From a virus: a stretch of 20,649 bases of DNA. The notes beneath the pieces are model-generated. The model was not told the DNA's origin. It was given only the letters and a program-made list of their open reading frames with translations, and ran no database searches. A program made the translations under genes and the position numbers. Positions 17,438 through 20,649 of this stretch are shown piece by piece. The DNA is taken from positions 1-20,649 of IMG/VR virus record IMGVR_UViG_3300009130_000172, one strand, 5' to 3'. Each line of letters starts with the position of its first letter. The first letter of the stretch is position 1.

Positions 17438-17854
17438 ATGGCCGACACTGGACAAGGCGCAACCTTGACGCTTGCGACGACTGGGAGCGTGGGAACCATC
17501 CGTTCCCTCACGCTACCTGACATCACAATTGACACGCTTGAAGACAGCAACCTCAGTACCACTGGATTCAAGACTTACGTCAAAACGGATCTCGCGGAAC
17601 CGGGAACCATCCAAGCTGAAATTCTTTGGGATGCGACCAGCAACTCTTTGCCTACCTTGGGAACCCCCGAAACGGTGACTGTCACGTTCCCGATTCATAC
17701 GTCTGGCAACACCACCAATGCCACGTTTGCTGGCACGGGTTTCATCAGCGGGATCAAAATGCCCGACATGCAAATTGGCGAATTACAAGTCGCCACTTTG
17801 ACGATTCAGTTGGATGGCAAAACAGATCCTGCCTTCACCGCAGAAGCATCATGA
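17438..17854 (+). CDS. Major tail tube protein
   Basis: The protein has 138 residues, ATG 17438 behind GGAG. It is a small all-beta protein, Thr/Gly-rich (TGQGATLTLATTGSVGTIRS, LPDITIDTLEDSNLSTTGF, KTYVKTDLAEPGTIQAEILW, FAGTGFISGIKMPDMQIGEL), the typical tube fold of siphoviral tails (gpV-like). Hexamers stack to form the tail tube. The gene is followed by an ATGA-coupled acidic tail gene containing a strong hairpin, then the chaperone and tape measure. Confidence 0.87.
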   Translation: MADTGQGATLTLATTGSVGTIRSLTLPDITIDTLEDSNLSTTGFKTYVKTDLAEPGTIQAEILWDATSNSLPTLGTPETVTVTFPIHTSGNTTNATFAGTGFISGIKMPDMQIGELQVATLTIQLDGKTDPAFTAEAS

Positions 17855-18177
17855 CCCTGAAGGTGACAGTAGAGCCGTTCATCGGTAACAGCGTGCTAAA
17901 AAACCCTGACGGGTCAAATAAACCCGTCAGGTTTGATCAGTATCGCGTGCGGGTGGACGGCATGCATGCCGGGTTCATTGGGTTTGCACCGGGAAGCAAA
18001 TTGATGCTTACCCTTCGGTTCTCGCCTATCGAGATCGATGAGATTGAAAAACAGGTTGCTGGTTTGGTCGGTAGCGAAAACCAGCAGAGTGTTACCGTAC
18101 CGGACGTTCCGGCAGAACTTTTGAATCCTGACAGTGAGGACTGGGATGACGACGACGAAGACGACTTTGACCCGTGA
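17851..18177 (+). CDS. Small acidic-tailed tail protein of unknown function
   Basis: The protein has 108 residues, ATG 17851 in an ATGA overlap; the frame extends farther upstream but only through the tube gene. It is a beta-rich protein (YRVRVDGMHAGFIGFAPGSK) with a helix (IEIDEIEKQVAGLV) and a very acidic end (DWDDDDEDDFDP). I do not recognise a family. It lies between tube and chaperone, where small tail proteins are common. Codons 19-27 form a perfect 10-bp stem. Its last 32 bases overlap the next gene. Confidence 0.68.
   Translation: MTLKVTVEPFIGNSVLKNPDGSNKPVRFDQYRVRVDGMHAGFIGFAPGSKLMLTLRFSPIEIDEIEKQVAGLVGSENQQSVTVPDVPAELLNPDSEDWDDDDEDDFDP
17905..17931 (+). other. Perfect 10-bp intragenic hairpin after the tail tube gene
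   Basis: CCTGACGGGT (17905-17914) is the exact reverse complement of ACCCGTCAGG (17922-17931), with a seven-base loop CAAATAA. It lies about 50 bases after the tail tube stop, inside the next coding region. The bases after it (TTTGATC) are only weakly T-rich. Confidence 0.85.
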
Positions 18178-18517
18178 GGCAGTATTCGATAAGGCGAAAC
18201 CTCGCTACGAGGTAGTCCAGGTCGAAGGCTGGGGAACGGTTGGAATAAAGTCAATCAGTGAAGTGCAGCGATCACGCAGAGCGTCAAGATTCTGGGATCA
18301 AGACGGTGAACTCAACGAGGATGCGGCCACGATGCGCCGCGTCCATTCGATCATTGATCAGGTGATGGTCGATGAGAAAACACCGATGTTTTCAGAGTCT
18401 GACGCCAAGCAAATAGGCGAGCTTGATCCAATCATGCTCGATCAGTTGTACGTTGCAATCATGAACTTCAACTCGACAGAGGAAGACGCTGGAAAAAAGG
18501 ACGAATCGAGCGACTGA
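18146..18517 (+). CDS. Tail assembly chaperone, short (0-frame) product
   Basis: The protein has 123 residues, ATG 18146 with AGGA at 18137-18140; GTG 18134 is an alternative. The sequence begins MTTTKTTLTREAVFDKAKPR YEVVQVEGWG and has a helical core (LNEDAATMRRVHSIIDQVMVDE, DAKQIGELDPIMLDQLYVAI). The position between tube and tape measure genes, small acidic helical character and a slippery site near its end identify it as the lambda gpG-equivalent. Such chaperones bind tape measure and tube proteins during tail assembly and are not in the virion. It ends at TGA 18515-18517, which lies inside the predicted stimulatory stem. Confidence 0.82.
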   Translation: MTTTKTTLTREAVFDKAKPRYEVVQVEGWGTVGIKSISEVQRSRRASRFWDQDGELNEDAATMRRVHSIIDQVMVDEKTPMFSESDAKQIGELDPIMLDQLYVAIMNFNSTEEDAGKKDESSD

Positions 18518-18738
18518 AAAAAGAATTCAGTCGCAACGGCAGACTGAAATTCGTTTTCGGTTTGTGCAAGGAATTATGCATCGACGATCCGATCAGTTGG
18601 TTCAATGCGGCACCACCGAAAGTGGTGGATTCATGGATCGCGTATGAGTCGGTGCTCGCAGACGAACGAACGGCGACAAATGATGAAAGCGTTTCACCCG
18701 CAAAGGCACTTGAGCAGTTGAGCGAAAAATATGGCTAG
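18146..18738 (+). CDS. Tail assembly chaperone, -1 frameshift product (gpGT-like)
   Basis: Ribosomes slipping back one base on A AAA AAG (18493-18499) would read 118 residues in frame 0 and then 79 more in the -1 frame, from GGA 18499 to TAG 18736-18738, giving about 197 residues. The extension (RIERLKKEFSRNGRLKFVFG, LCKELCIDDPISWFNAAPPK, VVDSWIAYESV, ending ALEQLSEKYG) has the 'W....p.....W.Ay' pattern of T-domain chaperones that recruit the tail tube protein. It has no early start codon of its own, so it would be missed by standard calling. Its stop overlaps the tape measure ATG at 18731 by 8 bases. This is the conserved GGT organisation of long-tailed phages. Confidence 0.85.
18493..18534 (+). 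promoter_or_regulatory. Programmed -1 ribosomal frameshift signal
   Basis: The slippery heptamer A_AAA_AAG (18493-18499) is in the correct phase (GGA AAA AAG). After a ten-base spacer a perfect 9-bp stem follows: GCGACTGAA (18510-18518) and TTCAGTCGC (18526-18534) around loop AAAAGAA. The same heptamer is used in E. coli dnaX. Confidence 0.87.
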
Positions 18739-20649
18739 CGGAAAAATTGGATCGCTCGTTTACGATGTGATTGCTGATACGAGAAAGTTCACAGAAGGAC
18801 TTGTGCCAGCAAAAAAGGAGATAACAGCATTCAACAGAATGCTGTTAAATACGCGAACGCCGCTTGAGGCAATGCAACTTGACTTGGAAGGGATCGGAAG
18901 AGTTGCAAAGTCTGGCCTACAACCGATCAGTGCTATGACGAGGTCGGTGGCGCAGTTAGCGGTAGAAACAAAAGGGGGTGGTGTTGCCGCTAGAGAATAT
19001 GTCGCTGCGTTGCGTAGGGAACTGTCGGCAATTGAAGATGTAGTGGTGGCAAATCGCAGCATGACTGAATCGCAGCGCACGCAGATGCAACTTTTAAGGA
19101 CTCTCGCAAACGAAACAGAAGAAGAGGTAAATGCCGCGAGGGATGCACAGGCGGCAAGCCTGAAAAACAAACGCGCAAAAGAAAGGGAAACCGCTGCCCT
19201 GAGAGAGCAAAGAAAGGAACGCGAGCGGATCAATGCTCTAGAGAAGTCAGCAAGGTCCGCGAGGCACTCAAGGGTTATGGGAGCGGTCCCTGTAGATGAG
19301 CAGGAGCGACTTAAACGATTACTTCGGGAAACAAACAAGGAGTACAACCGGGGGCAAATCAGCACCAAAAACTACAAAGCAGCGGTCGCAAACCTGAAGC
19401 GACAACTACATGAACTTTCACCAGCGTTTGCAGCAGAGAAGCAAGCAGCCGCTGCCTCTGATGCAAGAATGCAGAGACTCAATGCAACATATCGGTCACT
19501 GATTACACCACAACAAAGGGTGCAACAGGAGATCAAAGAACTTGGTATAGAGTTTAGAGCAGGCAACATAACCGCTGAAATGCATACTGCCCTACTTACG
19601 CATTTAACAAATAAGTATAGGTCATTGTCGCCTGCGGTAATCGAGGCAGACGCGAGACTAAAGCGGGTGCAGTCAACTATTGCAAGGTCGGTTCCTGCAA
19701 GCGACAGATTACAAAAGGAAATGCGGGAACTGCACCTTGAGTACAAGAGAGGAACAGTAACAGCGACACAGTATCGCCAGGCTTTATTGCTTCTCAGAAA
19801 AGAGATGACCGCTCTTACACCCCGCGTTGACGAAGCTGGTAAGAAAACGTCAGGATTCGGTAGCCAGTTAATGGCAATCGGTAAACACATCGGTTTCATC
19901 ACTGCTGGTTACGCTGCATTGCGTCAAGTCAAGTTGGCGATTGGTGACGCACTTGAACTTGAGCGATCTCAAGTGCAGTTCCAAGTGTTCACGGGAAGCG
20001 TGAAAGAGTCGAAGCGATTGATTGCTGACCTTCGCGATTTTGCAGCACGAACGCCGCTGACATTCAAAGGCTCCCAGCAGGCAGTCAAGACCCTGATGCT
20101 ATATGGGGTCACGTCAGAGGATGTGATGAAGCGACTCAAGCAACTTGGTGATGTATCAGGCGGATCGCTTGAATCGCTGCAACGACTGTCGCTTGCATTT
20201 GGTCAAATTAGTGCAAACACCAGATTACAGGGACAGGAACTCAGGCAACTCATTGAGGCAGGATTCAATCCTCTCCAAGTGATTTCAGAGAAGACCGGCG
20301 AGAGTATGTCATCACTAAGGCAGCGAATGGCAGCCGGTGCTGTCAGTGCTCAGGAGGTTGCAGATGCGTTGGAAGCGGCAACCACTGAGGGTGGGCGATT
20401 CAACGACATGCTCAAGACGATTGGCGAAGACACTGCGTTTGGCAAAGTACAGATCCTGAAAGGCGAGATAGAAAAACTGCGAGCAGACATAGCAGCAGGA
20501 ACAGCAGAAAACCTTGGTGGTGCTGCTGAAGTTACAACCAAGGGGATACAAGAGTTTCGCAGTGCAGCAAAGTCTGTTGCTGAGTCAACTACTGAGTCTC
20601 AGCAGAGCATGCTCGCATGGGGAACGACTGCCGCGTTGGTCTACAACCC
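18731..20649 (+). CDS. Tape measure protein, 3' truncated by window edge
   Basis: The frame from ATG 18731 is open for 639 codons to the window end, so the C-terminus is missing. Start MASGKIGSLVYDVIADTRKF is the usual 'G.l.y.l..d...f..gl..a' tape measure entry. Residues 120-175 are coiled coil. Three repeats of 63-70 residues follow (about 190-369). From about 397 the conserved segment LQFQVFTGSVKESKRLIADL, then FAARTPLTFKGSQQAVKTLM, NTRLQGQELRQLIEAGFNPL and AQEVADALEAATTEGGRF is the canonical tape measure core. It sets tail length and helps DNA ejection. The start overlaps the frameshifted chaperone stop by 8 bases and lacks a strong SD, so coupling is likely. Confidence 0.92.
   Translation, partial: MASGKIGSLVYDVIADTRKFTEGLVPAKKEITAFNRMLLNTRTPLEAMQLDLEGIGRVAKSGLQPISAMTRSVAQLAVETKGGGVAAREYVAALRRELSAIEDVVVANRSMTESQRTQMQLLRTLANETEEEVNAARDAQAASLKNKRAKERETAALREQRKERERINALEKSARSARHSRVMGAVPVDEQERLKRLLRETNKEYNRGQISTKNYKAAVANLKRQLHELSPAFAAEKQAAAASDARMQRLNATYRSLITPQQRVQQEIKELGIEFRAGNITAEMHTALLTHLTNKYRSLSPAVIEADARLKRVQSTIARSVPASDRLQKEMRELHLEYKRGTVTATQYRQALLLLRKEMTALTPRVDEAGKKTSGFGSQLMAIGKHIGFITAGYAALRQVKLAIGDALELERSQVQFQVFTGSVKESKRLIADLRDFAARTPLTFKGSQQAVKTLMLYGVTSEDVMKRLKQLGDVSGGSLESLQRLSLAFGQISANTRLQGQELRQLIEAGFNPLQVISEKTGESMSSLRQRMAAGAVSAQEVADALEAATTEGGRFNDMLKTIGEDTAFGKVQILKGEIEKLRADIAAGTAENLGGAAEVTTKGIQEFRSAAKSVAESTTESQQSMLAWGTTAALVYN
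19295..19837 (+). repeat. Three 63-70-residue repeats in the tape measure protein
   Basis: Each repeat has a helix, then 'eY.rG.it...y..al..l...l..LsP', then a polar link. The turn glycines are at residues 208, 278 and 341 and the S/T-P pairs at 230, 300 and 363 (spacings 70 and 63). The DNA repeats are diverged, so the duplication is old. Confidence 0.75.

Follow-up and report, generated by a model that had tools for sequence, protein, structure and literature searches.

The window, by which we mean the whole 20,649-nucleotide stretch of viral DNA that was analyzed, shows a siphovirus-like gene order of capsid, adaptors, tail terminator, candidate tail tube, G/T region and tape measure. The tail tube candidate at 17438 has a weak match to PF04985 (E 0.046), below the cut-off of that family. 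The tape measure gene (18731-20647, plus strand), which runs past the end of the window, matches PF20155 (TMP_3, E 9e-27) as well as several PHROGs tape measure families. An additional ORF of 199 residues in the related locus L002 (L002:10372-10971), flanked by its head closure and neck genes, is missing at that position in the window.

The ORF at 18146-18517 (plus strand) encodes 123 residues from an ATG at 18146, with a GTG at 18134 as a possible alternative start. Judged by homology, its product is a predicted gpG-type tail assembly chaperone. The PHROGs profile search assigned it to the tail assembly chaperone family phrog_344 (E 1.6e-12), and the best PDB match of its AlphaFold model (mean pLDDT 79.8) is the HK97 chaperone 2OB9 (E 1.2e-3, probability 1.00, 22% identity), which is distant in sequence and is matched by the G half only. 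G found no good match within the annotated phage collection searched, and neither G nor T of the window matched a Pfam or NCBIfam family. The overlapping −1 frame, with 79 codons and a TAG (18499-18738, plus strand), encodes the predicted T-type domain, an assignment that draws on T profile matches across 42 distinct junctions described below. The profile search for the T domain, which the earlier note on this DNA had proposed as a check, gave a mixed outcome. The window T alone has no significant family match; its best hit, to phrog_25875 (E 0.028), is weak and falls in the second half of that family, where the T homologue in L083 matches more strongly (E 5.8e-6). A PDB fold search with the model of the window T (mean pLDDT 76) returned no match.

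At the junction of the two frames, the slippery heptamer A_AAA_AAG (18493-18499) lies in the 0-frame phase GGA AAA AAG and is followed by a spacer of 10 nt (18500-18509) and by stem-loop 1 (18510-18534), a perfect 9-bp stem closed by a 7-nt loop. The arms of the stem, 18510-18518 and 18526-18534, are fully complementary and enclose the loop at 18519-18525. The 0-frame stop codon TGA (18515-18517) is located within the 5' arm. The earlier note had described exactly this cassette, including the phase of the heptamer, the gap, the stem-loop and the stop codon in the stem, and every coordinate matches. From 18427 onward, the −1 frame is open and contains no ATG; its first TTG (18562) falls within the conserved core of T, and its stop TAG (18736-18738) lies within the tape measure ORF, which begins with the ATG at 18731. 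The description of T as an extension of 79 codons lacking a start codon, ending over the start of the tape measure gene and escaping ORF finders, also holds, as standard ORF calling overlooks the T domain here. The second AAAAAAG pointed out within the stem-loop is indeed present (18517-18523), but it is an unlikely slip site: ribosomes in the 0 frame are unable to use it, as its first base is the final A of the TGA, and read in the −1 phase it provides no site for tandem slippage. We identified an additional hairpin that the earlier note did not contain, namely stem-loop 2 (18539-18565) with an 11-bp stem and a 5-nt loop, which spans the codons for RLKF and appears in both the minimum free energy and the centroid structures of 18500-18580.

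Relatives of the window, designated by L numbers, were retrieved from viral contigs by scans anchored on the capsid, on a tape measure alignment and on narrow alignments of G and T. Single-protein scans with G, T or the tape measure protein as the query found no viral relatives. Genome contigs were scanned with the portal and the tape measure proteins, and neither scan found a relative; because of the result with the tape measure protein, no host was assigned. The G and T profiles revealed 42 distinct junctions, the window counted among them, which include several near-identical contigs and are not independent lineages. T resides in the −1 frame relative to G in all 42. As for the conservation of the heptamer, which had been suggested as a check, an in-phase heptamer is found within the G/T overlap in 37 of the 42 junctions, the nearest relatives included: GGGAAAG in 13, GGGAAAC in seven, AAAAAAG and AAAAAAA in six each, and AAAAAAC in five. 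The position aligned with the A_AAA_AAG of the window carries this heptamer in L002, which shares 65% identity with the window in G and 43% in T, and in L083 and L084; L124 and L129 have it as well. The five junctions without an X_XXY_YYZ motif belong to one sublineage (L042, L046, L053, L057 and L078), in which T is still in the −1 frame and the junctions that were read have CTG GGG GAG in common.

The RNA downstream of the heptamer in the window is strongly structured. Stem-loop 1 in isolation folds at −12.2 kcal/mol (z −6.6), which none of 200 shuffles matched, and the stretch 18500-18580, with a folding energy of −27.7 kcal/mol (z −4.2), forms two hairpins in tandem. Near the heptamer, the structure is also stronger than in sequences that encode T with synonymous codons (P about 0.0025, z −3.6), and the value over a longer stretch is similar (z −3.7). 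Over the longer stretch, the family mean z against synonymous recodings is negative for every heptamer type, ranging from −1.5 to −3.0. The position of stem-loop 2 over the RLKF codons is also that of the hairpin in a sublineage of nine relatives with a compact hairpin, in which the spacer measures 7-8 nt as compared with 10 nt in the window. The covariation score of this compact hairpin is 0.391 versus 0.212 ± 0.039 in shuffles and is well above that of slid registers; the paired cells also exceed the shuffles, and the counts of pairs and of pair types do not. Two further elements were considered and given no weight. In place of a compact hairpin, relatives with G_GGA_AAG (L140, L143, L144 and L148-L162) show an apparent long-range pairing of the RIEK codons with the FSIC codons; this stem is absent at that register in the window, and L139 and L147 were mis-anchored in the alignment used. 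GAGG-like sequences upstream of the heptamer, resembling a Shine-Dalgarno-type stimulator, are not retained in L019 and L066 and could simply be glutamate codons.

Perfect stems are abundant in this DNA: stems of at least 9 bp with loops of 3-10 nt occur at five places in the window, whereas 20 shuffled windows contained 0.55 on average, and three of the five places closely follow in-phase A-run heptamers. One of these, on the plus strand within the tape measure gene (18811-18847), consists of an in-phase A_AAA_AAG, 4 nt, and a perfect 11-bp stem with a 4-nt loop. The equivalent position in L002 reads AAAAAAA, and the hairpin is absent there; since the hairpin is not conserved, we set aside this candidate for an extra frameshift cassette. 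At 17898-17931, an in-phase A_AAA_AAC abuts a perfect 10-bp stem. On the minus strand, this element reads as an intrinsic terminator, a hairpin followed by GTTTTTT; in L002, the part aligned with it showed no such stem. Because both of these stems follow heptamers and are unconserved in L002, the presence of a stem-loop is by itself weak evidence in this window.

The split between G and T might also be explained by a sequencing or assembly error, to which regions with A-runs are prone, or by decay of T into a pseudogene. Two findings argue against these explanations: the 42 distinct junctions, which stem from many separate assemblies, all show the same −1 relation, and the substitutions in T of relatives point to purifying selection. 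Within the T frame, the differences at the first, second and third codon positions number 4, 0 and 21 between L083 and L084 (dN 0.019, dS 0.65), 3, 2 and 14 between L083 and L124 (dN 0.022, dS 0.39), and 6, 5 and 22 between L019 and L066 (dN 0.045, dS 0.34). The resulting dN/dS ratios of about 0.03-0.13 in these close pairs indicate purifying selection; the figures come from pairs of relatives, as dS is not estimable for the pair of the window and L002. The concentration of differences at the third position implies that T is translated and constrained in these relatives, and we regard error or decay as having a negligible chance of being correct. Alternatively, T could be a product of its own, made through internal initiation or through reinitiation following termination of G; the heptamer would then be an accident of lysine codons. 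Some relatives with G_GGA_AAC (L011, L016 and L036) do possess a T-frame ATG that closely follows the stop codon of G. Against this, no ATG of the T frame occurs close to the core or upstream of it in 33 of the 42 junctions, the T frame of the window has no ATG and its first TTG falls inside the core, and the heptamers, retained in most junctions, are of differing types at equivalent places. Separate production of T therefore appears highly improbable.

Slippage itself can be separated from the question of what stimulates it. Ribosomes might slip on the heptamer without any aid, the 9-bp stem-loop being incidental or serving another purpose, as A_AAA_AAG is reported to be strongly shift-prone in E. 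coli (PMC5009743). In L002, eight of the nine pairs of stem-loop 1 are retained at the same columns, one of them as G-U, and the equivalent structure folds at just −4.6 kcal/mol. L083 and L084 contain a 6-bp repeat near this place, which is not part of their best fold, and the 9-bp stem is not preserved as such. The two unconserved stems behind the A-run heptamers at 17898 and 18811 point in the same direction. On the other side stand the excess of structure in the window over synonymous recodings, two compensatory changes among the pairs retained in L002, and the covarying structure that related sublineages keep directly after their own heptamers. We consider action of the heptamer alone to be a possible but rather doubtful account. 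The precise 9-bp stem is nevertheless less secure than the heptamer because it is less well conserved: the heptamer is well supported as the slip site, and stem-loop 1 is a probable rather than a proven 3' stimulator.

The earlier note had also raised a link between termination and frameshifting efficiency, for which the position of the stop codon is relevant. The 0-frame stop codon follows the heptamer by 1-28 nt in all 37 heptamer-bearing junctions, which is compatible with a coupling role and would also follow from the short overlap. It lies inside a hairpin in the window and in only some of the relatives, and in most of the nine compact-hairpin relatives it is found within the apical loop. 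In SARS-CoV-2, moving the 0-frame stop codon away or removing it lowered frameshifting, which was explained by the fast departure of terminating ribosomes, allowing the pseudoknot to refold (PMC8168617). By analogy, the placement of the stop codon near the heptamer and in the hairpin might have been selected, tuning the ratio of G to G-T through refolding of the hairpin after termination. We consider such selection unlikely, and a link between termination and frameshifting efficiency in the window is speculation; if true, it would represent stop-coupled frameshifting in a bacterial virus.

The arrangement closely resembles that of phage lambda, whose heptamer is G_GGA_AAG. As for gpG/gpG-T of lambda, the overlapping G and T frames are directly upstream of the tape measure gene, the −1 shift would take place on an X_XXY_YYZ motif near the end of G, and T lacks a separate start; the lambda heptamer itself occurs in several relatives of the window. 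Unlike lambda, the window has A_AAA_AAG with tandem hairpins downstream, and its G and T escape the Pfam and NCBIfam models. The dnaX cassette of E. coli likewise has a downstream stem-loop. In dnaX, however, the frameshift truncates the product, whereas in the window it would extend it, and a conserved upstream Shine-Dalgarno-like element is not established for the window. The heptamer A_AAA_AAG is the dnaX site, and lambda-type G-T frameshifting is described as conserved across a wide range of long-tailed dsDNA phages, even though their sequences show little similarity (PMC5009743). Predictors have also been trained on frameshifted tail chaperone genes (PMC10885494).

Both halves are homologous to those of the other junctions, T adjoins the tape measure gene, the heptamer and the −1 relation are conserved, and T is under selection in the relatives. 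On these grounds, we infer that the T domain is appended by −1 frameshifting and that the locus very probably encodes a lambda-type G/G-T tail chaperone pair of a siphovirus-like phage, made by slippage at A_AAA_AAG. Most ribosomes would finish 18146-18517 and produce the 123-residue G chaperone. A few would pause on the heptamer, presumably aided by the downstream RNA structure, whereupon both lysine tRNAs would move back by one base, from AAA AAG to AAA AAA, and translation in the −1 frame would give a G-T fusion of 197 residues. By analogy with lambda, G would coat the tape measure protein, and the T domain of the few G-T molecules would recruit the tail tube protein.

The site in the window adds to the already known lambda-type frameshifting of tail chaperones, as a well-supported case of G/G-T frameshifting in uncultivated phages. 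Since the 42 junctions vary both in heptamer type and in downstream structure, the set is usable for testing a trade-off between the strength of the heptamer and the structure that follows it.
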